From a virus, in the IMG/VR virus record IMGVR_UViG_3300025162_000197, positions 1 through 21,412 of that record: a stretch of 21,412 bases of DNA; one strand, written 5' to 3'. Positions within the stretch are counted from its first letter, which is position 1, and each line of letters starts with the position of its first letter. The position numbers were made by a program, and so were the translations under genes. Shown here one piece after another: positions 1,706 to 21,412 of the stretch. Below the pieces are notes generated by a model. That model made no database searches. It saw only the letters and a program-made list of their open reading frames with translations, and was not told where the DNA came from.

Positions 1706-1711
1706 TATACT
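1706..1711 (+). promoter_or_regulatory. -10-like box TATACT, leaderless geometry
   Basis: TATACT lies exactly 6 nt before the ATG at 1718, so transcription would begin at or next to the start codon. No Shine-Dalgarno and no convincing -35 is visible. It belongs to a set of eight boxes with the same spacing in this window. Confidence 0.5.
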
Positions 1712-1717
1712 TAACCT

Positions 1718-2074
1718 ATGGACGTATTCAGTTATTTAATTAAAGCGTTGGACGTTATCCGTTTTGGCTTATTTGTCATGGCGGGGTTCGAAGCACTGAC
1801 GGTGGCATACTTGTACCGTTTTGGCTACAACAAGTTTCGTCCAAGCAAAATAATCGGCGCTATGATAGCGTTTTTTGGGTCGTTGGGCTTGTTTTTTGTG
1901 TACAACTCACTTGCCCCGCTTGCTGTATCGTTTCGCCCCGATTTACACACTGCCGTGGTTGTTATTCTAATGCTTCCACTTGGCGGTGTTATTTACTACC
2001 TTGACCATTTCAGAACTGAAAGCATGAAAGAGCAAAAGAAGACGGAACAAACTGACGACATAAAAAAGGTATAA
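1718..2074 (+). CDS. Three-TM membrane protein, putative holin
   Basis: The protein has 118 aa with three hydrophobic segments, at about residues 11-33, 44-66 and 77-94. A highly charged C-terminal tail (ESMKEQKKTEQTDD) probably faces the cytoplasm. Size and topology fit class I holins, which make inner-membrane lesions that release an endolysin. The gene sits directly before a peptidase gene. Holins share little sequence, so the call rests on topology and context. The ATG has no Shine-Dalgarno but has a TATACT box 6 nt upstream. Its stop codon TAA lies inside the TATAAT box of the next gene. Confidence 0.6.
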   Translation: MDVFSYLIKALDVIRFGLFVMAGFEALTVAYLYRFGYNKFRPSKIIGAMIAFFGSLGLFFVYNSLAPLAVSFRPDLHTAVVVILMLPLGGVIYYLDHFRTESMKEQKKTEQTDDIKKV

Positions 2075-2075
2075 T
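2070..2075 (+). promoter_or_regulatory. -10-like box TATAAT, leaderless geometry
   Basis: A perfect TATAAT, preceded by GG, ends 6 nt before the ATG at 2082. The stop codon of the upstream gene (TAA, 2072-2074) is part of the box. There is no recognisable -35 at 17 nt. Confidence 0.55.
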
Positions 2076-2081
2076 TAAATT

Positions 2082-3146
2082 ATGTTAAATATAAAGCCAC
2101 TTAACCAACGTGACCCGCTTTGGGCGAAAGTTATTTTAGGCGACAACACTGACCCACAATTTACAATTGGTGGTTACGGTTGTTTGATTACCTGCCTTGC
2201 AATGGTGTCTTGTTATTACGGACATCCTGAAACACCAAATTCCCTTAACGAGAAATTGAAAAAAGCAAAGAAATTCACAAACGGTGGGTTTTATGTATGG
2301 GGTGGTTTGACAGCTATTGACAGTGATATTCAGGAAAAGGCAACCTTGACACCCGCCAAACTTACCGACGCACAGATAAAAGAAGTCAAAAAATCAATTG
2401 ACGCAGGTTACCCCGTAATGTGCCAAATAGACTTTCAACCTTTAACTGCAACGCCTGATATGCACTATATTTTGCTTATTGGCTACAGTGATGAGGATTT
2501 TACAATGGCAGACCCTTGGACTGGCACAATTGCCCCACTTGCGGTGTACCTAAAAGCTACCAAGCCAACGGTTCGTGACACGATTGAGCAATACTACATT
2601 TACACAGGTAAAGTTCCTGTACAAGCCCCAAGCGAGCTTGAAACGGTTAAAAAAGCACTGACCGACATGACCACTGACCGAGATTACCAAAAGGGCGAGA
2701 AAGAGAAATACAAAGACGAACGAAACCAGTTGCGTGATGTTGATGTACCAACACTTAAATCACAAATAACAGGAATTAACGCTTTACTTGATAAGCAAAA
2801 AGGCGATATTGCAACACTTCAAAGCACAAATAACAAGCAAACCGACGACATAATTAGTCTTACAACTGAAAGAAATCAGTCATTGCAGGCAAAAACAGAC
2901 GCCGAGCAGAAACTTGTTGAGTTTGCTAATAAACACGCCAATTGCGTACCCCAAGACACCTATACAGCCGAACAAGACCGTGCGTATGGTTTCCAACAGG
3001 CGCTAATGATACTTTCCACACATGTTGATGAAGAAGCAGACAAGAGAGCGCAAGCACTTTTGGTTGCCATGGATTACAAACACTTATTCAGCTTGGCTTT
3101 CAAAGCCATGTTTGCAAAGAAAAAGGCGGTGAAGAATAATGCCTAA
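2082..3146 (+). CDS. C39-like cysteine peptidase with long coiled-coil C-terminus (putative endolysin)
   Basis: The protein has 354 aa. Residues 1-175 resemble a papain-fold C39-type peptidase: Cys34 in GYGCLITC, His128 in DMHYILLIGY and Asp144 in MADPW form the expected Cys-His-Asp order. Residues about 180-285 are a charged coiled coil, and the last 60 residues are helical and basic at the end (KKKAVKNN). C39 enzymes usually cut after Gly-Gly. In phages, related domains occur in endolysins and virion-associated lysins that would cut peptide cross-links. No signal peptide is visible, so export would need a holin, and a holin-like gene lies just upstream. The coiled-coil tail in place of a wall-binding domain is unusual. 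The stop overlaps the next start by 8 nt. Confidence 0.7.
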   Translation: MLNIKPLNQRDPLWAKVILGDNTDPQFTIGGYGCLITCLAMVSCYYGHPETPNSLNEKLKKAKKFTNGGFYVWGGLTAIDSDIQEKATLTPAKLTDAQIKEVKKSIDAGYPVMCQIDFQPLTATPDMHYILLIGYSDEDFTMADPWTGTIAPLAVYLKATKPTVRDTIEQYYIYTGKVPVQAPSELETVKKALTDMTTDRDYQKGEKEKYKDERNQLRDVDVPTLKSQITGINALLDKQKGDIATLQSTNNKQTDDIISLTTERNQSLQAKTDAEQKLVEFANKHANCVPQDTYTAEQDRAYGFQQALMILSTHVDEEADKRAQALLVAMDYKHLFSLAFKAMFAKKKAVKNNA

Positions 3147-3354
3147 AATCACAGTTGAACAGGGGAAAGCCCTTATCAAGTCAAAGACGTTTTGGTTTAA
3201 CGTATTAGCAGGTGTCGTGGCTATCGCTTCAATTTTCGGGTTCGGTGACTTCAAACCAAGTTCAGAAACAACCGAAGCTATTGCAACACTTACCGCAGTG
3301 GTAAACATCTTTTTGCGATTAAATACGAGTGAGCCAATTACTAAACTAAAATAA
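3139..3354 (+). CDS. Small one- or two-TM phage membrane protein (holin-like)
   Basis: The protein has 71 aa. An N-terminal charged stretch leads to SKTFWFNVLAGVVAIASIFG, a common layout of small phage membrane proteins found beside lysins. A second moderately hydrophobic helix spans about residues 47-60. The Shine-Dalgarno AGGCGGTGA lies inside the end of the peptidase gene, so the two are probably translated together. It may be a second holin or an antiholin partner of the three-TM protein, but no motif fixes this. Two terminators follow, so it closes the lysis operon. Confidence 0.65.
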   Translation: MPKITVEQGKALIKSKTFWFNVLAGVVAIASIFGFGDFKPSSETTEAIATLTAVVNIFLRLNTSEPITKLK

Positions 3355-3364
3355 AAATATAAAT

Positions 3365-3414
3365 CACATGCCGTGGTTTTAATCCCTTTGGTTTTTACCA
3401 TGGCGTGTGTTTTA
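3365..3414 (+). terminator. Intrinsic terminator after the lysis operon (first of two)
   Basis: CACATGCCGTGGT (3365-3377) pairs with ACCATGGCGTGTG (3397-3409). This gives a 13-bp stem with two G-U pairs and a 19-nt loop, followed by a short TTTT. The U-tract is weak, so it may instead protect the RNA 3' end. Confidence 0.6.
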
Positions 3415-3455
3415 TGGGTTTATTTACTGCCACAAGTATTAACAAAAATATCAAC

Positions 3456-3486
3456 AAGACGGTCTAACAGCCGTCTTTTTTTATTC
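3456..3486 (+). terminator. Intrinsic terminator, strong
   Basis: AAGACGG (3456-3462) pairs with CCGTCTT (3471-3477) around an 8-nt loop, followed by a run of T residues (TTTTTATT). It lies about 100 nt after the last lysis gene and ends the transcript. The gene-free stretch 3355-3523 holds these two terminators and nothing else that I see. Confidence 0.85.
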
Positions 3487-3523
3487 TTATAAACCTGTAC
3501 AGCTACATAAGGGAGCAAACACC

Positions 3524-3652
3524 ATGAACATTAAGTTGGTTATTGAAGTGCTTAAAAAGATTGACGAATTTTTGTGGTGGGGCGATAGGGACACCGCACA
3601 TGAAATGATTTTGAAACTCATTGCGGACTTGGAAAAGAACCTTAAAAACTAA
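3524..3652 (+). CDS. Small hypothetical protein, 42 aa
   Basis: The short frame runs ATG to TAA and is preceded by GGGAG at a usable distance. The peptide is amphipathic and helical, starting MNIKLVIEVLKKI and containing FLWWGDRD. It is probably a real gene because it has a ribosome-binding site, sits after a terminator and lies 19 nt before the HNH gene in the same orientation. The function is unknown. The two adjacent tryptophans followed by charged residues are its only distinctive feature. Confidence 0.5.
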   Translation: MNIKLVIEVLKKIDEFLWWGDRDTAHEMILKLIADLEKNLKN

Positions 3653-3671
3653 AAACCAAGAGAGGTGACCC

Positions 3672-3953
3672 ATGCCAAAAAAGACCCGTGTCAAATTAAC
3701 ACAGGCAGAGCGTTTGGCAGTTTTGGAGTGTGATGGTTTCTTGTGCCGTGATTGTGGCAAAGGTGGTCGTTGTTCCGATTGGATTTTAGAGGTTCATCAT
3801 GTGAACGAAGACCCAAGCGATAACGACCCACGCAATTTAATCACACTTTGCGTTCGTTGCCATAACCATTACCACCCGTGGCGTTTCCATGTTCCGCTTC
3901 ACCGATGTTATAGATTTTCGGAGTTGCGGAAATTTCAAAAGGCATTTGCTTAA
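3672..3953 (+). CDS. HNH endonuclease
   Basis: The protein has 93 aa with a complete HNH fold. Zinc ligands are Cys25-x-x-Cys28 and Cys60-x-x-Cys63. The beta-beta-alpha metal core contains His42-His43 (EVHHVN), Asn55 and His64. There is a Shine-Dalgarno AGGTG before the ATG. Small free-standing HNH proteins in phages act as homing-like endonucleases or as partners of the terminase during cos or headful cleavage. Here it stands between terminators and away from the terminase genes, which slightly favours a mobile endonuclease, though on a circular map both are possible. Its stop codon lies inside the stem of the following terminator. Confidence 0.85.
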   Translation: MPKKTRVKLTQAERLAVLECDGFLCRDCGKGGRCSDWILEVHHVNEDPSDNDPRNLITLCVRCHNHYHPWRFHVPLHRCYRFSELRKFQKAFA

Positions 3954-3984
3954 CTTATCCAAGTTAGGTGAGTGCCTTTTTTCT
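3939..3984 (+). terminator. Intrinsic terminator overlapping the 3' end of the HNH gene
   Basis: The 18-nt arms 3939-3956 and 3961-3978 pair completely, with four G-U pairs, around the loop ATCC. A TTTTTTCTTC tract follows. The last codons and the TAA of the HNH gene lie in the 5' arm, so transcription ends at once after the gene. Confidence 0.88.
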
Positions 3985-4066
3985 TCAACCAATATGTAAT
4001 GGGGGAGTAAGTGGGGTGTCCCCTACTTTGACACGTCCCACACTTTATTTCCGTTTTTTGTTGATG

Positions 4067-4095
4067 TGACAATGTCATTATTTCCCGCACGGGAA
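4067..4095. repeat. Two short inverted repeats in the HNH / nuclease intergenic region
   Basis: TGAC-AAT-GTCA (4067-4077) and TTCCC-GCAC-GGGAA (4082-4095) stand 4 nt apart in an otherwise featureless stretch between the HNH terminator and the promoter at 4182. They could be operator sites or a small hairpin. The second has no T-tract, so it is not a terminator. The rest of 3985-4181 shows nothing that I can support. Confidence 0.3.
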
Positions 4096-4181
4096 TTGTA
4101 ACGTCTCTTTTATTGGGGGAGTGGTGCGTTTTGCTGATAACAACAACATTAACACCCCTTTCGTTAAGAATAACGCACAAC

Positions 4182-4210
4182 TTGACGAGAGGGGACAGGT
4201 GTTATACATT
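4182..4210 (+). promoter_or_regulatory. Promoter TTGACG-17-TACATT, leaderless geometry
   Basis: TTGACG (4182-4187), a 17-nt spacer and TACATT (4205-4210) form a full sigma-70-like promoter. The -10 ends 6 nt before ATG 4217. The transcript would therefore start at or very near that ATG, which supports it as the true start. Confidence 0.55.
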
Positions 4211-4216
4211 GTTGTT

Positions 4217-4600
4217 ATGCAATCCGAGGTGAATTTATTTTCAAAAACAATAAAATCAGAAAAATCAGCAATAAATTATTTGGCTACCCATTTGGGGGTA
4301 TCAAAAAAGGATATAAAACATCTAACTTTAGACAACCCAAGCAGTCTTTACGACCTGCAATTTAAGAACACCCGTTTTGACGTAAAATATTCGTCACCGA
4401 CAAAAAGCCGAAACAATTTATATTGGGATTTTGACCTTAGATATAAGGGGGCGGATTATTGCGACTTTTTTGTATTTTTAGGTATGTGGGAAACCAAGGT
4501 AAAAAAAGTATTTTTAGTGCCTGTTAAAGAGGTTACAACTTTTCGCCGTATTCGTGTTTCTATCTTGGGGAACTCTAAGTACAATAAATACATCATATAA
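4217..4600 (+). CDS. PD-(D/E)XK-like nuclease, putative
   Basis: The 127-aa protein starts at ATG 4217. The helical N-terminus is followed by LYDLQF (Asp46) and RFDVKYSS (Asp55-x-Lys57), spaced like motifs I-II of a PD-(D/E)XK nuclease. Then come WDFDL, a DYCDFFVFLGM strand and KKVFLVPV, which fit the later strands of that core. Similar small proteins are phage homing nucleases or restriction-like enzymes, and the neighbouring gene is an HNH nuclease. The frame is open back to GTG 4121, but the extra 32 residues are low-complexity and a promoter lies inside that stretch, so the shorter start was chosen. Fold assignment is by motif only. Confidence 0.6.
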   Translation: MQSEVNLFSKTIKSEKSAINYLATHLGVSKKDIKHLTLDNPSSLYDLQFKNTRFDVKYSSPTKSRNNLYWDFDLRYKGADYCDFFVFLGMWETKVKKVFLVPVKEVTTFRRIRVSILGNSKYNKYII

Positions 4601-4606
4601 GTTAGG

Positions 4607-4612
4607 TATAAT
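4607..4612 (+). promoter_or_regulatory. -10-like box TATAAT, leaderless geometry
   Basis: A perfect TATAAT preceded by AGG ends 6 nt before the ATG at 4619. No -35 is evident at 17 nt. It belongs to the same class as the boxes at 2070, 14819 and 20141. Confidence 0.55.
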
Positions 4613-4618
4613 TATTTC

Positions 4619-6025
4619 ATGCACGAAATCGCAATTTTAATCCCTACATACGGCAGAGCGCACAAACTTGCAGGCATAAAAGCCAACATCGAAGCTACGT
4701 GCAAACAAAACATTTACATCATTTGCAGTGAAGAAGACCCTGAAACATTTAACGAGGCAACCCGCCTTGGACTTAACATCATCATAAGTGGTGGTCGCTA
4801 TGTTGAGGGTATTAACCTTGGCTACAAATTAACCGACGAACCTTACTTACTTTTTGGAGCGGACGACATAGAATTTACACCCGATTGGGACAAAAAACTT
4901 TTGAAGTATTTTGATGACCCTAAAATTGGCATAGTTGGTTCACCCGACGATTGGACAATCTCGCAAACAGGCAAGCATGGTTCACACCCACTTGTTAAGC
5001 GTGCATACATTCAAGAATTTTCGGGAACGTATGACGAACCCGATATACCCTATTCACCATTTTACAAACATTACATGGCTGATATTGAAACCGAACAAGT
5101 TGCACAAATGCGTGGCGCTTGGGTTCAAGGTGAAGCAGAAATAAAACACCACCATTGGGTAAACAAGCAAGCTGAAAAAGACGCAACTTATGTTCGTGGC
5201 ATGAAGAACCTGCAACACGACATGGAAGTGTATAACGACAGGCGCAAGAACTTTGAACAATATCTTTTTGAGCCACTTTTTAACGGCAGAGTGGTGGCGG
5301 TTGACCATGCCACTAAACTTTCAATCATTATGGGGTCGTTTAATGCCTTTGATATGTTAAAGCAAACGGTTAGGTCACTGAAAAAGAACACTTACTACCC
5401 GTATGAACTTATCATTGTTGACGATTGTTCCGACAGCAGGGTAAAAACGTGGCTTGAAAACATTGGAGCAGAAAACCCCAACATTACGGTTGTTTTTAAC
5501 GACTGCCAACAGTACACAAACGCAGTTTGGAACAGGGGCGTTTTGCTTGCTAAAAACGACTATATTGCGGTCATAAATAACGACATTACCTTTTCACAGT
5601 GGTGGGACGCCTACCTTGTGGAAGCCTTGAAAGACAAAAAGGTTGGTCTTGCAAACCCGTACCAAACAGATAGGGAAGCGCCAACACCATATGCAAACAC
5701 CGAAAGAGCGGGTGGTTACAATATTCGGGGGGCTTGCTATATGTTCAAAAAACAAGACCTTAAAGGCATTTTCCCAATACCTGAAAAGTTAAGGCATTGG
5801 TGGGGCGATATTTGGGTGCTAAAACAGGTTGAAAAGATGGGTAAAAAATCCGTATGGTGTCCCGACGCTGTAATACACCATTTCGGTGAGCAAAGTACCC
5901 AAGAAGCTAACAAAGACCACACGGTTGACCACATAAAACTTAAAGACTGCCAAGAGTTCACAAACCTTACAGGTACAAGCACAACTAAGTGGCAAAACCT
6001 CGTATTATCCCAAATAAATAGGTGA
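4619..6025 (+). CDS. Tandem two-domain glycosyltransferase (GT-A / GT2-like)
   Basis: The protein has 468 aa and two GT-A-like domains. Domain 1 (about 1-225) starts EIAILIPTYGR and has the metal/sugar-nucleotide motif FGADDIEF (Asp82-Asp83). Domain 2 (about 233-440) starts LSIIMGSFNAFDML, followed by ELIIVDDCSD, and has VINNDITF (Asn320-Asn321-Asp322) as its DxD equivalent. The later WWGDIWVLKQVEK and HHFGEQST match the acceptor-side half of GT2 enzymes. Such enzymes move a sugar from a nucleotide donor to an acceptor. In phages the acceptor may be modified DNA, capsid or fibre protein, or host surface glycan, and the sequence does not say which. The gene stands alone, with a leaderless-type start and the replication leader after it. 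Confidence 0.85.
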   Translation: MHEIAILIPTYGRAHKLAGIKANIEATCKQNIYIICSEEDPETFNEATRLGLNIIISGGRYVEGINLGYKLTDEPYLLFGADDIEFTPDWDKKLLKYFDDPKIGIVGSPDDWTISQTGKHGSHPLVKRAYIQEFSGTYDEPDIPYSPFYKHYMADIETEQVAQMRGAWVQGEAEIKHHHWVNKQAEKDATYVRGMKNLQHDMEVYNDRRKNFEQYLFEPLFNGRVVAVDHATKLSIIMGSFNAFDMLKQTVRSLKKNTYYPYELIIVDDCSDSRVKTWLENIGAENPNITVVFNDCQQYTNAVWNRGVLLAKNDYIAVINNDITFSQWWDAYLVEALKDKKVGLANPYQTDREAPTPYANTERAGGYNIRGACYMFKKQDLKGIFPIPEKLRHWWGDIWVLKQVEKMGKKSVWCPDAVIHHFGEQSTQEANKDHTVDHIKLKDCQEFTNLTGTSTTKWQNLVLSQINR

Positions 6026-6045
6026 CACACATTGGCATATTGCAA

Positions 6046-6074
6046 TTGTTTTGTAAGAAGCGTTAAATTATAAC
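6046..6074 (+). promoter_or_regulatory. Putative promoter TTGTTT-17-TATAAC before the replication genes
   Basis: TTGTTT (6046-6051) and TATAAC (6069-6074) are separated by 17 nt. Initiation would fall near 6080, where the first arm of a long-range RNA stem begins. The match to consensus is moderate. Confidence 0.4.
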
Positions 6075-6078
6075 TATA

Positions 6079-6170
6079 TGGCAATACTGTACATTTACTT
6101 AACTAAATTTGAAGACAAAGACCCCCGCACGACAGTATTGCCAAATACCCTATTGTGCGGGGATTTTTAT
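6079..6170 (+). promoter_or_regulatory. Structured leader: interleaved stems (pseudoknot or attenuator) with T-tract
   Basis: Two helices interleave. TGGCAATACTGT (6079-6090) pairs perfectly with ACAGTATTGCCA (6132-6143). CCCCGCAC (6123-6130) pairs perfectly with GTGCGGGG (6155-6162), which is followed by ATTTTTATTTT. In 5' to 3' order the arms are A, B, A', B', so the stems either exclude each other (antiterminator versus terminator) or form an H-type pseudoknot with 1 nt between B and A'. The element lies in the leader of the initiator gene, whose ATG is at 6197. The stretch 6026-6196 contains no gene. Confidence 0.65.
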
Positions 6171-6196
6171 TTTCAAGTTTGAAAGGACGCCTGCCC

Positions 6197-7048
6197 ATGC
6201 AAATATCAGATAACAGTTTTGTAGTGTTAAGAAGAAAAATAATAAATTGGGAGTGGTACACCGACAATGATGTTAAGGCGCTTTTTTTACACTGCCTTTT
6301 AAGGGCTAATTTCGAGGACGATACATGGCGGGGTGTTCCTGTAAAACGTGGTCAATTTATTACAGGACTTTTCAAACTTCACGAAGAAACGGGAATATCC
6401 GTACAGACGTTGCGACGTTGCATAAAATGTCTAAAATCAACAAACGAAATAGTGGTACAGTCAACAAACAGGTTTTCATTGATAACAGTAGTTAAATATG
6501 AAAAATATCAAGGTAAGGTAACAAGCAAAACAACAAGCCAGCCAACAAACAACCAACAAACAACCAACAAACAACTAACAACGAGTAACAATATAAACAA
6601 TATAAACAATGGGAACAAGGGAGAGGGAAAGACATCACCCGAAGCCGAAAAACAATTGCCATCTAACGAGCTGGACACACAGGCACGTGAGGTTATGGCT
6701 TACTACGCAAAGAGGCGCAACAAGGTGGTTAAATCGTATGCGGGGTGGATTGATAACTTCAAATACTGGATTACCGAGGGCGGTTACACAGTTGTGGACA
6801 TTAAGCGGGCGATTGACGCTTTAGAAACAGGGCGATTTTGGGCAAAGGACGCAGACCTTACCTTAATTTTCCGCAGGTCAAATAAACAGGGTAAATGTGA
6901 TTATATTTGTGAGTTGCTTAACATAATGCCTGAATTTAAGACCCGAAAAGAGCAACTTGACTGGTTTGACCGTAACACTGGCGGGCTTACTGGCAACCAA
7001 ATGGTTGAGTACGGGGCTTTGAAAGGGGACGAACCCGCATATCGTTGA
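6197..7048 (+). CDS. Replication initiator / replisome organiser-like protein
   Basis: The 283-aa protein starts at ATG 6197 behind GAAAGGA. The open frame reaches back to GTG 6155, but that codon lies in the leader stem. The N-terminal domain (about 1-115) has the phage replisome-organiser winged-helix pattern: NWEWYTDNDVKALFLHCLL, VPVKRGQFITG and SVQTLRRCIKCL. A Thr/Asn/Gln-rich linker (about 116-155) follows. The C-terminal domain (from about 170) contains YYAKRRNK and FWAKDADLTLIFRRSNK, as in DnaD-like or phage initiator C-termini that recruit the helicase. The linker DNA contains three 11-bp iterons and an AT-rich stretch, a lambda-O-like layout. The primase-helicase follows directly. 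Confidence 0.75.
   Translation: MQISDNSFVVLRRKIINWEWYTDNDVKALFLHCLLRANFEDDTWRGVPVKRGQFITGLFKLHEETGISVQTLRRCIKCLKSTNEIVVQSTNRFSLITVVKYEKYQGKVTSKTTSQPTNNQQTTNKQLTTSNNINNINNGNKGEGKTSPEAEKQLPSNELDTQAREVMAYYAKRRNKVVKSYAGWIDNFKYWITEGGYTVVDIKRAIDALETGRFWAKDADLTLIFRRSNKQGKCDYICELLNIMPEFKTRKEQLDWFDRNTGGLTGNQMVEYGALKGDEPAYR
6530..6615. other. Candidate replication origin
   Basis: The iterons at 6542-6574 are followed by a directly repeated AT-rich AATATAAAC motif (6590-6609), all inside the coding sequence of the initiator. Iterons near the length of one helical turn beside an easily melted segment, inside the initiator gene, match the lambda O/ori plan. The call is inference from layout. Confidence 0.4.
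6542..6574 (+). repeat. Three tandem 11-bp iterons inside the initiator gene
   Basis: CCAACAAACAA occurs three times without mismatch at 6542-6552, 6553-6563 and 6564-6574. The 11-bp unit is not a multiple of three, so each copy is read in a different codon phase. This argues against a pure amino-acid-repeat origin. Confidence 0.8.
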
Positions 7049-7087: not shown

Positions 7088-7101
7088 TTAGTGAAAGGAT
7101 A
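7088..7101 (+). repeat. Shared leader motif TTAGTGAAAGGATA, copy 1
   Basis: This leader, which includes the Shine-Dalgarno GAAAGGA, precedes the ATG at 7104. The same 14-mer precedes genes 8869 and 11989, and an 11-nt version precedes 13301. Confidence 0.7.
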
Positions 7102-7103
7102 AA

Positions 7104-8813
7104 ATGCCACTAACGAACCAAGAACTTACAAGGTACTACATTGAGCAACTAGGTTGGTCAATTTTCCCTATTGGATTTGATAAACGTCCCCTGTTTAAGT
7201 GGGAAGAATATCAGCACAAAAAATTAACATACGACGAATTCATGGACAAGGTGCGAGCCAACCAAGGCAAGGTTGGTGGTATCGCTGTTGTTACAGGTGA
7301 AATTTCGGGGCTTGCTGTTGTTGACGTGGACTTTAAGAACGGCGCTGTTGATATTTTGGACGGTAGCCCGACCGTAACATCAAAGACGGGTTCGGGTGGT
7401 CGCCACTACTTCTTTGCGTGGGAAAAGTACATACAAAACAAGGTAGGCTTTTTGCAGGGCATAGATTTTAGAGGTGATGGCGGTTACATCGTTTTGCCAC
7501 CATCAAACCACCCAAGCGGTACAAAGTACGAGTGGCTAAAATCACCCGAAGACCATGTAATTTTGAAAATGCCCGAAAACATTGCCTATGCTTTGGAGAA
7601 CGCAAGCGCAATGAACAAACCCCGTGTTGATTTTTCAGCCACTTACGATGTTGGAAATCGTAACGACACAATGACAAGTGCTATTGGTGTTTTGCTTAAA
7701 TACTTACCCGACCAACTTTGGTCAACCGACGCATACCCACTGATTAAAGCGTGGAATTTTGCCAACATGAACCCGCCATTACCTGAACAAGAGTTGCAGG
7801 CGTCATTTAACCAAGTGGCAAAAACCGAGATACGCAGGCGCAGTGGAATGTATGACGGGATTACTTTCAAAGACAGGCTAGGTTTAAGTGATGTTGACGC
7901 CCTGTTTGAAGAACCACAAGGTATAAAGACAGGTTTGCGAGGCTTTGATGGCACAACGGGTGGCTTTCGTGAGGGGCAACTCGCAATAATGGCAGGAGCA
8001 ACGGGAATGGGTAAATCGCTTTTTGCAATTAACCTGATGGTCAAACTTGCACAAAACGATATTCGGGTTTGCTTTATAGACTTGGAAAATGGGCAGACAT
8101 TAACGATGAAACGTGTTTTGGGAATACACACAGGTATGGGAACACGGCTGTTTAATAACAAAGCCAATAAAGTTAAGGCAATTGACGCAATGAAAATCTT
8201 TAACAACTTTGACTATCATTCCTACGAGTTCGGCTTGAAGACACTTGGCGTAAAAGACATTGTTGAAGTCATGGCTGAAAAGGTTAAAAACGGCGTAAAG
8301 GTTTTTTGTATTGACCCACTTCAAGCACTTGAATTTTCGCTTGATAGTGGCAAACAATTAAACGAAGAAGGCTTGCTTGTTAAAACATTTGCCGAGTTTG
8401 CAGTGCGTAACAGGGTTTCAATTGTTATTTGCCACCACTTGCGTAAATCGCAGAGCAACGGCAATTGGGTTTCACAAACAGATTTTGGCAAAGAAGACAT
8501 TGAACCTAAATATCGCATACCAACCATTGAAGACATCAAGGGAAGTTCAAAGATAACCGACTTTGCAACCGATGTGTGGGGCTTTGTTCGTAGTAAAGAG
8601 GGTAAGGACGCACGCACGAGGTCACAAACCCGCTTTGCTGTATTGAAATGCCGTGTCGCCCTTGGGGGTAATGCAACTTTTTACTTTGATGAAAACAGTA
8701 TGCGTTTTGTTGATAACGAAATGGATTTAACCACAACCGAAGACAACCTTTTTAACAAGGACGCAATAGCAATTTTGAACGAGCCTTTACTTGGAACACA
8801 AAAAGGGGCTTGA
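7104..8813 (+). CDS. Bifunctional PrimPol primase - DnaB-like helicase
   Basis: The protein has 569 aa. Residues 1-170 are a PrimPol-type (archaeo-eukaryotic primase) domain: VVDVD supplies Asp74 and Asp76 for metal binding, GSGGRHYFF carries His101, and DFRGDGGYIVLPPS is the third conserved block. Residues about 265-530 are a RecA/DnaB-like helicase with Walker A GATGMGKS (298-305), Walker B VFCIDPLQA (Asp404) and VICHHLRK as the switch segment. Combined enzymes of this type unwind DNA and prime synthesis at the phage fork. No phage polymerase is visible, so the host polymerase probably extends the primers. The gene follows the initiator and has its own promoter-like sequence and Shine-Dalgarno AAAGGA. 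Confidence 0.9.
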   Translation: MPLTNQELTRYYIEQLGWSIFPIGFDKRPLFKWEEYQHKKLTYDEFMDKVRANQGKVGGIAVVTGEISGLAVVDVDFKNGAVDILDGSPTVTSKTGSGGRHYFFAWEKYIQNKVGFLQGIDFRGDGGYIVLPPSNHPSGTKYEWLKSPEDHVILKMPENIAYALENASAMNKPRVDFSATYDVGNRNDTMTSAIGVLLKYLPDQLWSTDAYPLIKAWNFANMNPPLPEQELQASFNQVAKTEIRRRSGMYDGITFKDRLGLSDVDALFEEPQGIKTGLRGFDGTTGGFREGQLAIMAGATGMGKSLFAINLMVKLAQNDIRVCFIDLENGQTLTMKRVLGIHTGMGTRLFNNKANKVKAIDAMKIFNNFDYHSYEFGLKTLGVKDIVEVMAEKVKNGVKVFCIDPLQALEFSLDSGKQLNEEGLLVKTFAEFAVRNRVSIVICHHLRKSQSNGNWVSQTDFGKEDIEPKYRIPTIEDIKGSSKITDFATDVWGFVRSKEGKDARTRSQTRFAVLKCRVALGGNATFYFDENSMRFVDNEMDLTTTEDNLFNKDAIAILNEPLLGTQKGA

Positions 8814-8852: not shown

Positions 8853-8866
8853 TTAGTGAAAGGATA
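8853..8866 (+). repeat. Shared leader motif TTAGTGAAAGGATA, copy 2
   Basis: Identical to copy 1, and separated from TTGACA by the same 37 nt. It supplies the Shine-Dalgarno for ATG 8869. Confidence 0.7.
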
Positions 8867-8868
8867 CT

Positions 8869-9111
8869 ATGAACGATAAAAAATACATCATCATAAGCGA
8901 TGAAAAAATGACCGAACTATCCAAGGTCATTGTGAGTTTACAATCGTTCTTTGACTACTGGTCAAAGGGCGTAATAACAAATTCCAAATACCAAGAGGAC
9001 GTAAAACCGTTACTTGATAAAGCAGAGGCAATACTTGACGCCCACGACGGTGTTGCTAATTTGTGGGGAAAGGACGAACAATCAAATGGACAACAAAACC
9101 CAACAGCCTAA
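8869..9111 (+). CDS. Hypothetical protein, 80 aa
   Basis: This is a soluble, mainly helical and acidic protein with SLQSFFDYWSKG in the middle and KPLLDKAEAILDAHD after it. No family was recognised. It has its own promoter (8810-8837) and the shared TTAGTGAAAGGATA leader, and it heads the run of genes that ends with the Cas4/RecB-like nuclease. Its expression is therefore early and replication-linked by inference. The C-terminus overlaps the next start by 26 nt. Confidence 0.7.
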   Translation: MNDKKYIIISDEKMTELSKVIVSLQSFFDYWSKGVITNSKYQEDVKPLLDKAEAILDAHDGVANLWGKDEQSNGQQNPTA

Positions 9112-9310
9112 AAAAGATGTAACCACTTTAGAGATAAAGCACGAAATAAGCCCCGACACATACATCGTGGTTGAGTACGAAAATTGTGCCTTTAAGAACG
9201 CTTTTATTGCGCTTGGTTACACAAAAATAATGATTGAAGCAGACGAACTTATAAATTTTTATGCACTGACCAACTGGTTAAAAACAGAACTGGCGGAAAG
9301 GAAATTTTAA
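9086..9310 (+). CDS. Hypothetical protein, 74 aa
   Basis: The open frame extends upstream to 9014, but ATG 9086 is preferred: AAAGGA lies upstream (9070-9074), and the earlier stretch would overlap the neighbouring gene by about 100 nt. The protein alternates strands and helices (TYIVVEYENCAFKNAF, ADELINFYALTNWLK) and probably forms a small alpha/beta fold. No family was recognised. It lies 2 nt before the next gene in the same operon. Confidence 0.6.
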   Translation: MDNKTQQPKKDVTTLEIKHEISPDTYIVVEYENCAFKNAFIALGYTKIMIEADELINFYALTNWLKTELAERKF

Positions 9311-10877: not shown

Positions 10878-10906
10878 TTGACAAAGTTATATAGTTTTAC
10901 TATTAT
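10878..10906 (+). promoter_or_regulatory. Promoter TTGACA-17-TATTAT, leaderless geometry
   Basis: A perfect -35 TTGACA (10878-10883), a 17-nt spacer and TATTAT (10901-10906) place the -10 exactly 6 nt before ATG 10913. No Shine-Dalgarno is present between them. Confidence 0.7.
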
Positions 10907-11841: not shown

Positions 11842-12005
11842 CTAATACAGCACCGTTCAAGCAACTGAAAAGGATTTTAGGCAAGGGTGTTATTAGTCTT
11901 GGTATTTTGAACCTGAAAGGCGTCCACATACTTACCGAAAAACAGTTTAACGAGGTAGTAAATAAAATTGTTAGTGAAAGGATAAAAAATGCAAAAAAAT
12001 CTTGA
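11838..12005 (+). CDS. Small hypothetical protein, 55 aa
   Basis: The frame starts at the ATGA overlap with the preceding gene and ends inside the next gene (overlap 17 nt). The peptide is basic and has a strand-then-helix look: VISLGILNLKGVHILTEKQF, then a lysine-rich helix. The coupling at both ends and the shared leader motif inside its 3' end support a real gene. The function is unknown. Confidence 0.55.
   Translation: MTNTAPFKQLKRILGKGVISLGILNLKGVHILTEKQFNEVVNKIVSERIKNAKKS
11971..11984 (+). repeat. Shared leader motif TTAGTGAAAGGATA, copy 3
   Basis: Identical to copies 1 and 2, but placed within the end of the 55-aa gene and without a TTGACA box in front. It serves as ribosome-binding site for ATG 11989. 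Confidence 0.65.
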
Positions 12006-13260: not shown

Positions 13261-13275
13261 TAAACTATATTAAAT

Positions 13276-13286
13276 TTAGTGAAAGG
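13276..13286 (+). repeat. Shared leader motif TTAGTGAAAGG, copy 4 (diverged end)
   Basis: The first 11 bases match the other copies. The end then runs into CGGTGA, which gives a stronger Shine-Dalgarno (AGGCGGTGA) for ATG 13301. Confidence 0.55.
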
Positions 13287-13300
13287 CGGTGATTAACAAA

Positions 13301-14818: not shown

Positions 14819-14824
14819 TATAAT
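14819..14824 (+). promoter_or_regulatory. -10-like box TATAAT, leaderless geometry
   Basis: TATAAT ends 6 nt before ATG 14831 and starts 2 nt after the upstream stop. No -35 at usable spacing is visible. Confidence 0.55.
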
Positions 14825-15994: not shown

Positions 15995-16118
15995 ATGGCT
16001 TAATTTTTTAGGTTGGGTGTTTTTTAAGTTGTCGTGTTTGCGTGACCGTACCCCCGCACCGATAACTTGGTTAATTGATTGGGTGCGCTATGAAATTTTA
16101 TGGGACAAATTAAACTAG
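15981..16118 (+). CDS. Small hypothetical protein, 45 aa
   Basis: The peptide begins KQSKWLNFLGWVFFKLS, an amphipathic aromatic helix likely to touch membrane, followed by RDRTPAPITWLIDW. AGGCAAGG precedes the ATG. It overlaps the preceding gene by 14 nt and the following one by 19 nt, which fits the packing seen throughout. No function can be assigned. Confidence 0.5.
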   Translation: MKQSKWLNFLGWVFFKLSCLRDRTPAPITWLIDWVRYEILWDKLN

Positions 16119-16846
16119 CGGTAGCAATACAACACTACCCGACCGAAGAACGTGTACGCATGAAAGACAGGCTGTTAAAACAGCTTGATAACGACCCCCG
16201 CATTAAGGTTGTTGCCGACGGCGATTTGTGGACAAACTGCAAAGCGTGTTTACGAAGTGCAGAGCAGGGGGCAACACATATTTTGGTATTACAAGACGAC
16301 ATTGAAGTGTGCCGTGACTTTTTGGAAACAGTAGAGCGAGCCGTTGAGTTAAGACCCGACAAACACATAACATTTTTCACAAACAGAAATAGGGAATTAA
16401 GCCAAGCAATGAACGAGGGCAAAAGATGGGTACGCATAAAGCGATGGTTGATGGCGCAGGCGTATGTCGTGCCTGTTTCAATGGTTGAGCCTTTTATTGC
16501 GTTTGCCGACAGCGCCCTAAAGGCTGACATCAAGTTTGACGATGACCGTTGGTGTGTTTACCATTTGTACACAAGAACGTACGTTTGGGCAGTAGCGCCC
16601 ACGCTTGTTCAGCACTTGGCTTGGGGTGAAACCACCATTGCCGATTTATACGGCGATGACTGGAAGTTTGTAAAAGAGGCAAGTAATAGAACGTCCGAAG
16701 TTTACCTTGGTGCAAACCGTTCGGGTCGTGAGGTTGATTTGTCCGATGTAAATAATTTTGTAGCCGACGAAAAAGGGCATATTCTCATGTATAAACACAT
16801 GATGAAAATTGATAACTTGTCGTGTGGCGTTAAAGGGGATTACTAA
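16100..16846 (+). CDS. Glycosyltransferase-like protein (GT-A fold)
   Basis: The protein has 248 aa. LAVAIQHYPTEERV opens the fold. THILVLQDDIEVCRDF (about residues 69-84) is the strand carrying the metal motif (QDD), and KFDDDRWCVYHLY (about 145-157) provides a second acidic patch at the expected acceptor side. This is the layout of GT-A glycosyltransferases, including phage-encoded ones. The acceptor is unknown. It is followed by a methyltransferase in what looks like a two-gene modification cassette placed directly before the terminase genes, so DNA, capsid or fibre decoration are the candidates. Confidence 0.65.
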   Translation: MGQIKLAVAIQHYPTEERVRMKDRLLKQLDNDPRIKVVADGDLWTNCKACLRSAEQGATHILVLQDDIEVCRDFLETVERAVELRPDKHITFFTNRNRELSQAMNEGKRWVRIKRWLMAQAYVVPVSMVEPFIAFADSALKADIKFDDDRWCVYHLYTRTYVWAVAPTLVQHLAWGETTIADLYGDDWKFVKEASNRTSEVYLGANRSGREVDLSDVNNFVADEKGHILMYKHMMKIDNLSCGVKGDY

Positions 16847-16847
16847 A

Positions 16848-17450
16848 ATGAAATATAACGTGGATTGGTTTTCGCATAATATACCGTCAATAAAAAAGGC
16901 AGTTGAGGGCAAGGAAAGTGAAAAAGTTAATATGCTTGAAATCGGTTGCAATGAGGGTAGAAGCACCGTTTGGTTTTTGGAAAACCTATTGTTGCACGAC
17001 GATAGCAGAATTACGGTTATTGATACGTTTAACAGTAGCAGTAATTACAAACCAAGCACAGCCAAGAAATCCCCATTACAAAAAACATTTGAAGAAAACA
17101 TAAAAGAAACAGGCAAAGCGGAAAAAGTGTTTGTTTACAAGGGTATGAGCCAAGACGTTATGCGTACAATGCCCACTATGCCACGTTTTGATGTTGTCTA
17201 CGTGGACGGCTCACACTACGCACCTGACGTTTTAGAAGATTTGATTTATGTATACCGCATGGTGAAAAAAGGCGGATTGATTATTTGCGACGACTACGAA
17301 CTTGGCTACGGTAACAATACAGGTAATGGCTATGACAACCCCAACTATGAAGAACTACCCAAAAACGCAATTGATACGTTCAAAAAAATGTTCAAAGACC
17401 AAGTTGAAGTTGTTTTTGCTGGTTACATTATGGTGTTGCGCCGTAAGTAG
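16848..17450 (+). CDS. Class I SAM-dependent methyltransferase
   Basis: The 200-aa protein starts at ATG 16848 behind AAAGGGG. The frame is open to 16809, but that part overlaps the upstream gene. NMLEIGCNEGRSTVWFLE (motif I, glycine-rich loop), RITVIDTFN (motif II acidic residue), RFDVVYVDGSHY (motif IV region) and KKGGLIICDDYELG (post-motif) follow the methyltransferase-24 / CmcI-like pattern. Such enzymes methylate sugars or small acceptors more often than DNA. Since it follows a glycosyltransferase, methylation of a transferred sugar is a reasonable inference. No DNA-methyltransferase NPPY/DPPY motif is present. Confidence 0.82.
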   Translation: MKYNVDWFSHNIPSIKKAVEGKESEKVNMLEIGCNEGRSTVWFLENLLLHDDSRITVIDTFNSSSNYKPSTAKKSPLQKTFEENIKETGKAEKVFVYKGMSQDVMRTMPTMPRFDVVYVDGSHYAPDVLEDLIYVYRMVKKGGLIICDDYELGYGNNTGNGYDNPNYEELPKNAIDTFKKMFKDQVEVVFAGYIMVLRRK

Positions 17451-17453
17451 GTT

Positions 17454-17459
17454 TATAAT
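17454..17459 (+). promoter_or_regulatory. -10-like box TATAAT, leaderless geometry
   Basis: A perfect TATAAT ends 6 nt before ATG 17466 and starts 3 nt after the methyltransferase stop. It probably starts the packaging transcript. No clear -35 is visible. Confidence 0.55.
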
Positions 17460-17465
17460 TAAGTT

Positions 17466-17609
17466 ATGGAATTTACTTGCCCATTATTCTTGAAAAAGAT
17501 TTTAGCCTTTTTAGGGTTTCCATTTTGTTCCCAATGCGGTAACAAGTTAATACTTAAATACACACACGGCTTTGATGAAAAAGAAGTATGGGGGTGTCCA
17601 AAATGTTAG
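17466..17609 (+). CDS. Small zinc-ribbon protein, 47 aa
   Basis: The short frame ends in two CxxC knuckles: FCSQCGNKL (Cys21 and Cys24) and WGCPKC (Cys44 and Cys47, the last residue). That is enough for one zinc. The N-terminus (FTCPLFLKKILAFLGF) is hydrophobic. It has the TATAAT box at 6 nt and overlaps the small terminase start by 7 nt. The function is unknown. A zinc-ribbon partner of the terminase is one possibility. Confidence 0.6.
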   Translation: MEFTCPLFLKKILAFLGFPFCSQCGNKLILKYTHGFDEKEVWGCPKC

Positions 17610-18094
17610 ACACACAATTTACCGACGCTTACGAAGAACTTACACCCGACGATAAACAATTAGTGTTAATGCACGTTGACGGCATGCCTTACAGACTAAT
17701 GGCAGAAGTATTAGCGATAAACGGCAAGGTGATGACCGAGGGGACGATTAAAAACTGCTTTGATAAGAACGGCAGGTTGTACAACGCTTACCAACTAAAA
17801 ACAAAAGAAAAAGAAGAACGCATTGCAGAGTTCCACAAGACCGCAGGGGACTTGCTAATTGATATTTCGTATAAGGCGCTACAAAACGTAAAAAAAGCGA
17901 TTGACGACGGCAAGGTGGGCGTTTCCCTTGATATTTTAGATAGGGTCGGATTAGCAAAGGTGTTGAAAGTGGAAGTTGCGGACAACCCGCTTATAACACT
18001 TTTGAGAAAAAACATTGAAGCATATGAACGAGATAACAAAATACCTTTTCAAGCTGAACAATCAGCCATTGACGCTGACACCAAAGCAGAGTGA
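17603..18094 (+). CDS. Terminase small subunit, putative
   Basis: The protein has 163 aa. ATG 17603 has GGGGGTG at good spacing. ATG 17588 in the same frame would add five residues. The N-terminal helices (ELTPDDKQLVLMHVDG, MPYRLMAEVLAI, TEGTIKNCFDKNG) look like the HTH-type DNA-binding domain of small terminases, followed by helices for oligomerisation (NVKKAIDDGK, LDILDRVG). It directly precedes and overlaps the large subunit by 71 nt, the usual order. Recognition of the phage packaging site is the inferred role. Confidence 0.7.
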   Translation: MLDTQFTDAYEELTPDDKQLVLMHVDGMPYRLMAEVLAINGKVMTEGTIKNCFDKNGRLYNAYQLKTKEKEERIAEFHKTAGDLLIDISYKALQNVKKAIDDGKVGVSLDILDRVGLAKVLKVEVADNPLITLLRKNIEAYERDNKIPFQAEQSAIDADTKAE

Positions 18095-19376
18095 AATTTT
18101 TGATTTAATCGTAGGGTGCAGACACCCACGAAACCAAGTAATAGCACCGACACAATACGGCAAGTCAATGGTCGTTGGTTTGGCAATAGACACAAGAGCA
18201 GTACCAATGGGCGAGCGTTTTACTGTCCTTGCACCGTCGCAGAAGAAATGCGACATCATAATGGGCTATTGTATTGACCATATCTTTGACAGCCCTGATT
18301 TACTGTCGCAGTTAGAGTTGGACAGTAGCACAAACCTCGATAGGTTAAGACGTGAGCGAAGCAAAGAGAGTTTGACGTTTAAGGGCGGTGGCGGTGTGCA
18401 GACGCTTACGTTAGACGCAAAAAATGGTAAGCGTGCTATTGAAAGTGCCATGGGTTTTGGTAGCAAGCGTGTCATTTTGGACGAAAGCAGTTTGATTGGC
18501 GACGACCTGTATGCAACGGTTAAACGTATGCTTGGTGGCTATGCGTACAAAGACCAATTCTTACTTGAAATTGGTAACCCGTTTCATCGTAACCACTTTT
18601 ACAGGACGTGGCACAGCCCGATTTATAACAAGGTTTATCTTGATTACAAGGACGGTTTAGCAGAGGGCAGATACAGCCCCGAATTTATTGAAGAAATGAG
18701 AGGGGAAGCGTTTTTTGACGTTTTTTATGAGTGCAAGTTTCCCGATGAAGAAGAAGTTGACGCAGGCGGTTATAGGGTTTTAGTTACTTACGATGTTTTG
18801 GAAAAGGCGTCAAGCGACACAGCCGAAATGACCGAGGACGACCCGTTGATACTTGGTGTTGATGTTGGTGGTGGTGGCGATTACAACGTGTATACGCTAC
18901 GCAATAGCAACTTTGCATGGTGCGAAAGTTTTAACCATAGCAATGACACAATGACCAATGTAACCGAGATTGAACGCATAATGCGTGACTACGGGGTTAA
19001 GGCGCAAAACATTTACATTGATGACACTGGTATTGGTCGTGGTGTTTGCGATAGACTAAAGGAAAAGGGTATCAGAGTGAACGCAGTGGCGTTTGGTTCA
19101 AAAGCAAAAGACCCAACACGCTATACGAACACCAAAGCAGAAGACTTTTGGCATGCCCGTCAATGGTTAGAAGCGGGCGGAAAGTTATTAAAATCCGATA
19201 AATGGCAACAGCTAAATTGGATTAAGTATAAAATTTCCACCGATAAGGTGCTTCAAATTGAGGGCAAGGACGATTTGAAGAAGCGTACAGGCAAGTCACC
19301 CGACTTTGCTGATAGTTTTGCATTAACTTTCACGCAAAGAGCGCCTGCACCAAATATACGGGTAATGGGTCAATGA
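18024..19376 (+). CDS. terL: Terminase large subunit
   Basis: The protein has 450 aa from ATG 18024 (TTG 18015 is in frame). The ATPase half has Walker A APTQYGKS (41-48) and Walker B VILDE (150-154, Asp153-Glu154). The RNase H-like nuclease half has LGVDVGGGGD (Asp280), YIDDTGIG (Asp333-Asp334) and SPDFADSF (Asp427 and Asp430), giving the acidic cluster needed for two-metal cleavage. It drives DNA into the prohead and cuts the concatemer. Length and motif order are normal. It ends at an ATGA overlap with the next gene. Confidence 0.93.
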   Translation: MNEITKYLFKLNNQPLTLTPKQSEIFDLIVGCRHPRNQVIAPTQYGKSMVVGLAIDTRAVPMGERFTVLAPSQKKCDIIMGYCIDHIFDSPDLLSQLELDSSTNLDRLRRERSKESLTFKGGGGVQTLTLDAKNGKRAIESAMGFGSKRVILDESSLIGDDLYATVKRMLGGYAYKDQFLLEIGNPFHRNHFYRTWHSPIYNKVYLDYKDGLAEGRYSPEFIEEMRGEAFFDVFYECKFPDEEEVDAGGYRVLVTYDVLEKASSDTAEMTEDDPLILGVDVGGGGDYNVYTLRNSNFAWCESFNHSNDTMTNVTEIERIMRDYGVKAQNIYIDDTGIGRGVCDRLKEKGIRVNAVAFGSKAKDPTRYTNTKAEDFWHARQWLEAGGKLLKSDKWQQLNWIKYKISTDKVLQIEGKDDLKKRTGKSPDFADSFALTFTQRAPAPNIRVMGQ

Positions 19377-20122
19377 TTGAATTTACAACTACATCGTTAA
19401 GGGAAGTTGAAAGTAACATACATCTTGAACAGGTCATTGCTACCCTGCCCCCTAAAAAGCAAGAACTCGTAAGGCTCATTATTGAGGGCAACAACTTGGC
19501 TAAATCCGCAGAGATAATGGGCGTTGATAGTGGGCTTGTCTACAAAATGAAACGTGAGTTGAAGCGTGATTTGCTAGGGCTACGAAAAGACTGTTGGGGT
19601 AAGATGGGTACACAGGAAACCGAGTTTGACCGTATTTGCCATCACAACATTGCTGAAATGCCGTTGTCACAGTTTATGCAGGTGTTTTTGGCTGATTACG
19701 ATTGTGAGGGTTTATTTAACTGGAACACCGATAACAGCATTATTGATAAGGCGTTTAGGCAGTGGGAAAACAACATACCGACGATTGTTAGTTTTGGAAA
19801 TAACGACACGAAAGTAACCACAGTGCTGTCATACATAGCATACAAGATGTTTCTAAGGTGTGACCCGATACGAGTAATTTACTTTGCAGACCAGTCGTTT
19901 GCACCCCACATTGCCAAGTTGCGTAAGGTCATGCGACTAAGCCCCGTTCTTAACGACAACATGCAGATGATAACAACAAAAACAGGTATAGGACTTTTGG
20001 ACGGTTCAATTTTGAGGTTGCACAATCCGCTAAACCCCTTTAAGACTGCCGACATTGCGGTGTATGATAAATCGTTAAAAGATAAACGTGTTGTTGCAGG
20101 GCAATCGCTATACGTTCAATAA
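19373..20122 (+). CDS. HTH protein fused to a degenerate terminase-ATPase-like domain
   Basis: The protein has 249 aa, coupled to terL by ATGA. Residues about 20-75 have a sigma-factor/LuxR-like HTH (LPPKKQELVRLIIEGNNLAKSAEIMG). The C-terminal part follows the order of the terL ATPase: IVSFGNNDTKVT (138-149) stands where Walker A should be but lacks GKS/GKT. VIYFADQS resembles the strand after it. SPVLNDN matches SPDLLSQ of terL, GLLDGSILRL the glycine-rich strand, and IAVYDKS (Asp232) takes the place of the Walker B VILDES. There is no nuclease half. It is probably a non-catalytic paralogue or packaging adaptor. The alignment was done by eye. Confidence 0.55.
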   Translation: MIEFTTTSLREVESNIHLEQVIATLPPKKQELVRLIIEGNNLAKSAEIMGVDSGLVYKMKRELKRDLLGLRKDCWGKMGTQETEFDRICHHNIAEMPLSQFMQVFLADYDCEGLFNWNTDNSIIDKAFRQWENNIPTIVSFGNNDTKVTTVLSYIAYKMFLRCDPIRVIYFADQSFAPHIAKLRKVMRLSPVLNDNMQMITTKTGIGLLDGSILRLHNPLNPFKTADIAVYDKSLKDKRVVAGQSLYVQ

Positions 20123-20140
20123 TTTGAAGTGTTTTATAGG

Positions 20141-20146
20141 TATAAT
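20141..20146 (+). promoter_or_regulatory. -10-like box TATAAT, leaderless geometry
   Basis: TATAAT preceded by AGG ends 6 nt before ATG 20153. It probably starts the structural-gene transcript. TTGAAG upstream is only 11 nt away, too close to be a -35. Confidence 0.55.
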
Positions 20147-20152
20147 GGATTT

Positions 20153-21412
20153 ATGAACATAATACAAAGACTTACTGGCAAAACCGAACAGCCAATTATG
20201 AAAAAGGGTGGGGATTTAAGAGCCGTTTTTCAAGTGCTTGGTGGTAATTCGGGCGAGCGTAGTTTTACAAAAAGAGATTATTTTACAGGCATTATTTATT
20301 CTTGTATTGACGCCATTGCACAGGCTACAGCGTCAACAGGTTTTGAACTTTACAGAAAAGACGCCGAGGTTGAAAAGCACCCCGCCTTGGATTTATTACG
20401 CAGACCCAACAGTTTTCAATCAGCCGTGGACTTGATGTACTTAATATCCGCATACATTGACGCACAGGGCAGAGCCTTTATTTATCCCGTTCCAAATAAA
20501 TCAAATAACGCAGGTGTTGTGAAAAACCCCGTTGAACTTTGGGCGCTTGACCCGTCACGCATAAAGACAATTGCAGGTGCAGGTTTTATACAAGGCTACA
20601 CATACAGAAACCCACAAGGCGTTGAAATCCCTTTTGGCACTGGTGAACTTATTTGCATACAAAGACCACACCCATTCAACCAATACGAGGGCGTGTCAAC
20701 CATTGAGATGGCAAGACTGACAATTGAAGCCGACCTAAATGCACAGTATTTTAACCGAGCGTTTTTTGCTAATTCCGCAACCCCTGATGGTGCTTTATCT
20801 ACAACTCAAATTGTTGATGATGACGTTTGGAAAAGATTAAAACAACAGTGGGAAGAACAGTACAATGGCGTAAACAACGCACACAAGACGCTTTTATTAG
20901 AGGGTGGTTTGACTTATCAACCATTTCAACCAACACAAAGAGATATGGAGTTTGTAAAGCAAAGAGAGTTTAGCCGTGACGAAATCTTGGCTATTTTCAA
21001 AGTGCCAAAAACCATACTTGCAATTACCGACGATGTTAACCGTGCCAATGCTGAAACAAGCGACTATGTGTTTGCAAGCCGTGTTGTTAAACCAAGACTT
21101 GAACTTATATTTGAAAAATTAAATCGTTTCTTGCTACCAATGTTTGACGCAAGTGAGGGGCTTGAACTTGTTTACGATGACCCCGTTCCTGACAACAAGG
21201 AACTTGAACTTGCAGAGGACGTGCAATCAGTAAACAAATGGCTAACAATCAACGAAGTAAGAGCCAAAAGAGGTTACGAGCCTATTGAGGGTGGCGACGT
21301 TTTGTATAGTCAAGGTTTATCAATGCCAATTGGCACTGACATTACTTTTACACAGCCTGCTGACAACACGAGTAACGACGGCGCTAATGCCGAAAACAAA
21401 GCAGTAAAAAAA
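20153..21412 (+). CDS. Portal protein (HK97 type), 3' end cut by the window
   Basis: The frame is open for 420 codons to the window edge with no stop. Family hallmarks include YFTGIIYSCIDAIAQATAST near the N-terminus, HPALDLLRRPN (clip/stem region), YFNRAFFANSATPDGALST, and REFSRDEILAIFKVPKTIL followed by RANAETSDYVFASRVVKPRL. These match the phage portal family of HK97-like phages, a dodecameric ring at the capsid vertex through which DNA passes and to which the terminase docks. Length already equals a typical portal, so only a short tail is missing. The ATG has a TATAAT box at 6 nt and no Shine-Dalgarno. Confidence 0.93.
   Translation, partial: MNIIQRLTGKTEQPIMKKGGDLRAVFQVLGGNSGERSFTKRDYFTGIIYSCIDAIAQATASTGFELYRKDAEVEKHPALDLLRRPNSFQSAVDLMYLISAYIDAQGRAFIYPVPNKSNNAGVVKNPVELWALDPSRIKTIAGAGFIQGYTYRNPQGVEIPFGTGELICIQRPHPFNQYEGVSTIEMARLTIEADLNAQYFNRAFFANSATPDGALSTTQIVDDDVWKRLKQQWEEQYNGVNNAHKTLLLEGGLTYQPFQPTQRDMEFVKQREFSRDEILAIFKVPKTILAITDDVNRANAETSDYVFASRVVKPRLELIFEKLNRFLLPMFDASEGLELVYDDPVPDNKELELAEDVQSVNKWLTINEVRAKRGYEPIEGGDVLYSQGLSMPIGTDITFTQPADNTSNDGANAENKAVKK

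Follow-up and report, generated by a model that had tools for sequence, protein, structure and literature searches.

Here, we present an analysis of gene starts in IMGVR_UViG_3300025162_000197, a linear IMG/VR record of a virus fragment, whose 21,412 bases in full constitute the window referred to throughout. The window encodes, among others, a C39-like peptidase, a glycosyltransferase, a primase/helicase, an RlpA-like protein, a terminase, and a portal protein. At eight of its genes, a hexamer resembling a bacterial −10 box ends exactly 6 nucleotides (nt) before the ATG start codon (offset 6). This layout is very likely real because related phages and the probable host bacteria, the Patescibacteria, share it. 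We suggest, with a probability of roughly 0.83, that it is best explained by leaderless (TA-led) transcription from −10 boxes read by the host in a phage of a Patescibacteria-infecting family. Leaderless transcription, which had been proposed from the window sequence alone, is well supported by the geometry of the boxes, by the relatives, by a corresponding pattern in the host that includes extended −10 and −35 signatures, and by the N-termini of homologues, which fall at the ATGs.

The offset-6 layout in the window

All eight hexamers are present on the + strand where they had been noted, each 6 nt before its ATG. TATACT (1706..1711) precedes the gene for a 118-amino-acid (aa) membrane protein in the lysis cluster (ATG 1718), and TATAAT (2070..2075), which overlaps the upstream stop codon, precedes that for the C39-like peptidase, a probable endolysin (ATG 2082). 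TACATT (4205..4210) lies ahead of a gene for an unknown protein (ATG 4217), TATAAT (4607..4612) ahead of the family 2 glycosyltransferase gene (ATG 4619), and TATTAT (10901..10906) ahead of the gene for an RlpA-like lipoprotein (ATG 10913). The three remaining boxes are all TATAAT and precede the genes for an 88-aa protein heading a gene cluster (14819..14824; ATG 14831), a 47-aa Cys-rich protein ahead of the terminase genes (17454..17459; ATG 17466), and the portal protein (20141..20146; ATG 20153). The weakest member is 4217, because its hexamer matches TATAAT at only 4/6 positions and its ATG lies inside a longer open reading frame opening with GTG at 4121/4124; a promoter at this site is, however, supported by TTGACG at a 17-nt spacing.

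Gene starts were called using a simple home-made codon-model caller that is blind to upstream sequence and, together with eight added starts, amounted to 39. TANNNT is present at offset 6 in 8 of these 39 starts, i.e., in about a fifth of the phage genes, compared with a mean of 1.03 and a maximum of 3 at the other offsets from 0 to 39 (Poisson P 1.2e-5; 5e-4 after multiplication by 40). The original prediction expected 0.6 cases by chance, which is slightly low, while its conclusion that the enrichment does not arise by chance holds. For boxes with at least 5/6 matches to TATAAT, the contrast is sharper, with 7/39 at offset 6 versus a mean of 0.21 elsewhere (P 2.5e-9). Exact TATAAT-N6-ATG occurs five times on the + strand, every time at a called start, while 500 dinucleotide-preserving shuffles gave a mean of 0.13 and a maximum of 2; up to a spacing of 30, no other distance between TATAAT and ATG is found more than once in the window. 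Thus, the comparison of offsets that had been called for, made over all window starts (with TANNNT) and in related phages, revealed enrichment at offset 6 in both. The window is AT-rich (GC content ~0.41) and start calls are open to bias, as an artefact of chance or composition would have it; however, the shuffles, the other offsets, the relatives, the host genomes, and the negative controls (Escherichia coli, lambda, D29, and Shine-Dalgarno [SD]-rich relatives) all oppose such an artefact, leaving it a negligible chance of being the explanation.

As originally stated, none of the eight genes has an SD sequence at a usable spacing (4-11 nt), and a clear −35 box at 17 nt is present only for 4217 (TTGACG) and 10913 (TTGACA; 10878-10883). 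AAGG and AGGA end 12 nt before the ATGs at 2082 and 14831, respectively. With transcription starting at +1, the −10 hexamer of sigma-70 promoters occupies positions −12 to −7, and a 6-nt gap therefore puts +1 on the A of the ATG. We propose that the main RNA polymerase of the host would recognize the −10 box (TATAAT or close to it) at seven, probably eight, of the window sites and initiate where it normally does, 7 nt past the hexamer, on what is here the A of the ATG. The mRNA would then have its 5′ end on the start codon, or no more than one or two bases away from it, and would presumably be translated by 70S ribosomes, while the other phage genes would rely on ordinary SD starts or on overlap with the preceding gene. 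The phage may thereby adopt the expression mode of its host, because −10-N6-ATG is a common genomic start signal in Patescibacteria.

The boxes had been described as standing at the heads of operons. They do lie at module boundaries; however, six of the eight are located 7-30 nt past a codirectional stop and, therefore, are more likely promoters inside a gene array than clean operon heads. No convincing terminator was seen directly before any of the eight promoters in the window scan. With promoters close behind codirectional stops and without a preceding terminator, read-through mRNA would also cross the SD-less ATGs; a local promoter would provide a 5′-terminal AUG usable by ribosomes without an SD sequence. 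At 2082, 4619, and 20153, a GG (in AGG or AAAGG; 2065-2069, 4602-4606, and 20136-20140) abuts the −10 box, 12 nt before the ATG, as it also abuts the −10 box at position 11862 of relative L085 and 18410 of L087; this GG could be either part of an extended −10 element or a distant SD sequence for read-through mRNA. The sole convincing intrinsic terminator in the scanned part of the window is at 3456-3477 (AAGACGGTCTAACAGCCGTCTT followed by a T-run). Consensus scans for sigma-70 promoters (48 versus 41 in shuffles) and terminators (22 versus 23.5) gave no clear excess and were used for individual sites only.

The interior genes of the window mostly overlap their neighbors or are preceded by an SD sequence. 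A leader identical or close to TTAGTGAAAGGAT is common to the SD-led starts of the primase/helicase gene (TTAGTGAAAGGATAAAATG, 7089..7106 on the + strand; start 7104) and the gene at 8869 (TTAGTGAAAGGATACTATG, 8854..8871 on the + strand) and marks a second, leadered class of starts; similar leaders are found at 11977-11991 (start 11989) and 13274-13291 (start 13289). It is plausible that the offset-6 boxes form a programme of lysis, packaging, and portal modules, and we infer that the genes concerned are expressed late in infection. A scheme in which late modules are leaderless and early genes SD-led would suit some of the genes listed but not, in any obvious way, those for the glycosyltransferase and the RlpA-like protein.

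Related phages and the patescibacterial host

No near DNA match to the window was present among 50,697 phage records, and its terminase is related to those of other phages from metagenomes, with identities mostly of 40-66% (~65% in the nearest relatives). In the clade nearest to the window (L006-L010 and L021), the peak at offset 6 is strong and SD sequences are scarce; for L006 and L007 together, 8 of 35 ATG starts have a box at offset 6 (next highest offset, 2). The genes concerned are partly other genes than in the window. The portal gene allows the widest comparison: in 17 of 27 distinct relative loci, a 5-of-6 −10 box ends 5-10 nt before the ATG, and almost no −10 box is found elsewhere in the upstream 60 nt. 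The spacing is exactly 6 nt in L006-L010, L021, L071, and L086, and 5-10 nt in most other near relatives. Because both hexamers and spacers differ between phages (TATAAT-ggattt in the window, TAAAAT-atttgt in L006-L010, TAAAAT-aaaaac in L086, and TAAAAT-taagct in L071), the layout has been kept while the letters have changed. The portal N-termini of L086, L071, and others align at the predicted ATG. Similarly, the glycosyltransferase orthologue in L075 is 60% identical, aligns from residue 1, and has TAGAAT at offset 6. Thus, the signal is kept at the orthologous starts of these two genes; the other six have no usable orthologues among the relative loci. Relatives rich in SD sequences (70% of starts) lack an offset-6 peak and provide a built-in negative control. 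Gene starts of E. coli and lambda have no offset-6 excess, and mycobacteriophage D29 has the signal at 0/72 starts.

In the wider relatives, a distance of 8-11 nt between the −10 box and the ATG is frequent and could give rise to a leader of 2-5 nt, so that the boxes would be true promoters of transcripts that have a short leader, or a start codon further downstream, and are not strictly leaderless. Against this, the spacing in the window is exactly 6 nt every time and homologue N-termini align at these ATGs; moreover, a leader of 2-5 nt holds no SD sequence, and such transcripts are usually classed with leaderless mRNAs. We consider this alternative unlikely.

The original prediction pointed to Actinobacteria or Deinococcus as the host. 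The evidence does not support this and favors Patescibacteria instead. The phage collection contains no DNA match, the terminases of Arthrobacter phages are only ~28% identical, and D29, the one mycobacteriophage examined, lacks the signal, as mentioned. Among 380 genomes, the one close locus for the terminase (61% identical) is in a Candidatus Daviesbacteria (Patescibacteria) metagenome-assembled genome (G001), beside a serine recombinase gene; the remaining matches are distant. The contig is 61.5 kb long and carries host-type genes followed by the serine recombinase gene, a primase-like gene, and the terminase gene. Named from their sequences and not from a database search, the host-type genes read as those for a proton pyrophosphatase-like protein and lysyl- and seryl-tRNA synthetases and a secA-like gene. 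The phage segment looks like an integrated, reduced prophage and not like a mis-binned phage. It spans ~14980-23352 of this contig (G001:C40; loci L105, L106, and L039), adjoins the secA-like gene, and is followed by possible cargo genes, e.g., for a BlaI-like regulator and membrane proteins. Because a terminase relative sits in a Daviesbacteria chromosome with host-type genes, the sequences indicate that the phage family infects Patescibacteria; by extension, the host of this very phage would be a patescibacterium.

We surveyed 236 ATG genes on 17 stretches of the Daviesbacteria genome, leaving out the phage contig. A −10 box is present at offset 6 in 24 of them (~10%) over a background of 1.9, with 6-8 genes at each of offsets 7-9 and ~2 per offset past offset 13. 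The 24 genes have TTGA near −35 and T/G at −15/−14, which is the extended −10 signature, and their boxes are, judged by these motifs, promoters of the sigma-70 type. TATAAT-N6-ATG outnumbers its reversed control 1084:382 in the host family (higher in 29/29 genomes) and 3368:1489 in the phylum (higher in 127/145 genomes), compared with 2116:1732 for N8 spacing. When the spacing k of TATAAT-Nk-ATG was varied over 0.9 Mb of host loci, counts were highest at k=6 (45) and k=7 (31), compared with a baseline of ~10. A peak at the level of gene starts is clear in G138, G081, and G079, and G138 is exceptionally strong, with 124 TATAAT-N6-ATG versus 10 reversed controls in 0.7 Mb. The layout is thus common, not universal, in the phylum. 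The anti-SD sequence (CACCTCCTTTCT) is intact in the 16S genes of two Patescibacteria genomes, G081 and G079, consistent with the coexistence of SD-led and leaderless starts; no 16S gene was found in G001 or G138.

Several observations weigh against leaderless transcription from host-read promoters. Six of the eight promoters lack a recognizable −35 box, the starts come from a home-made gene caller, and part of the start calls in the relatives are uncertain. Moreover, the host assignment rests on a single close chromosomal relative, the 61% identical terminase, and the enrichment in Patescibacteria is uneven, with 14/145 genomes showing the opposite and G069 lacking a peak at gene starts.

A TGTATAA promoter class in wider relatives

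Upstream of portal and other genes in ~15 relatives, (A/T)TGTATAA lies at a fixed N19 spacing from TANAAT. In 1.03 Mb of phage loci, this arrangement is present at 33 sites versus 0-6 at any other spacing, and the 0.93 Mb of host loci sampled contained none at N19. TTGACA-N17, by contrast, can be seen in phage and host loci alike. With looser −10 matching, the clade contains 35 TGTATAA sites, of which about two thirds lie 6-11 nt before a called start. The carriers are L012, L013, L014, L017, L019, L020, L041, L042, L043, L052, L067 (e.g., at 9117, 11227, and 14151), L071, L073, L082, L086, and L098; the window is without such a promoter. Pattern scans of IMG/VR returned at least 120 matches for TGTATAA-N19-TATAAT and at least 120 for an N22 control. 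A coding origin of TTGTATAA upstream of the portal gene, as Leu-Tyr-Lys, was rejected upon three-frame translation, by which it is intergenic in L041, L052, L042, L098, and L017. Because it falls between genes in these relatives and the spacing stays the same or almost the same, TTGTATAA is a DNA element. The presence of several intergenic copies in a phage, each at a different gene, disfavors simple common descent and a constraint from coding.

The TGTATAA element occupies the −35 position, and a natural guess is that it is read by a phage factor or an alternative sigma factor. Since TGTATAA-N19-TANAAT is absent from the sampled host DNA, it is probably read with a phage-encoded factor. This forms part of a broader and still tentative possibility, namely that phages of Patescibacteria use dedicated promoters of a leaderless or near-leaderless type, often of the phage-specific TGTATAA class, for their late modules and keep their replication genes SD-led. 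If so, the switch in initiation mode would help to time the infection.

These data also bear on whether the hexamer works in translation instead, as an AT-rich, unstructured ribosome-binding element of SD-less genes like those in Bacteroidota. The lack of SD sequences at normal spacing in the eight genes would agree with this idea, and the Fibrobacteres-Chlorobi-Bacteroidetes (FCB) group is known to have non-canonical, AT-rich upstream elements (PMC9581028). However, the signal is a fixed-register TATAAT and not a broad A/T preference; the host copies have the sigma-70 signature described above and 10913 has TTGACA at 17 nt; and in the wider relatives, the −10 box is preceded at a constant distance by a second DNA element located between genes. 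A ribosome element would need neither a −35 or extended −10 element nor a fixed upstream element, making a role in translation quite improbable.

Comparison with known systems

Patescibacteria are a very large and almost uncultured group of ultra-small bacteria with reduced ribosomes. If the leaderless explanation is correct, a sizeable share of the genes in Patescibacteria and their phages would be leaderless, affecting start-codon annotation and the design of expression constructs for this group. In addition, the offset-6 layout would help to assign orphan phage contigs to hosts among the Patescibacteria from sequence. In the literature searched, we found no report of leaderless expression in Patescibacteria/Candidate Phyla Radiation (CPR) or their phages, although earlier notice is possible.

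The lambda cI mRNA from PRM is the classic leaderless phage mRNA. In cI, used as a positive control, TAGATT ends exactly 6 nt ahead of the ATG. The window resembles cI in that the −10 hexamer of a phage gene ends 6 nt before the ATG; unlike lambda, in which this concerns one regulatory gene, it has seven or eight module-leading genes of this type, including those for lysis and portal.

In an analysis of 953 bacterial genomes, TA-led genes were described that have TANNNT/TATAAT ~12 bp upstream (first T) and no SD sequence, beside SD-led genes; the TATAAT center is more informative in medium-GC genomes, and TA-led genes are negatively correlated with operon-distal genes (PMC3160421). The window matches this class of Zheng et al. 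(2011) in the position of TANNNT/TATAAT, the lack of an SD sequence, and the coexisting SD-led genes, but differs in that most of its promoters lie inside tight codirectional arrays. In Deinococcus, a −10 motif 6-7 bp before open reading frames was experimentally shown to be the promoter of leaderless genes (PMC12340547). The position of the box is, thus, like that in the leaderless genes of Deinococcus-Thermus; unlike in Deinococcota, in which ~30% of open reading frames carry it, the layout described here belongs to another host group and is present in ~10% of the sampled Daviesbacteria ATG genes. Altogether, the window would represent a known mode of gene expression in a new group and not a new mechanism, with the host group and the family-specific promoter adding modest interest.

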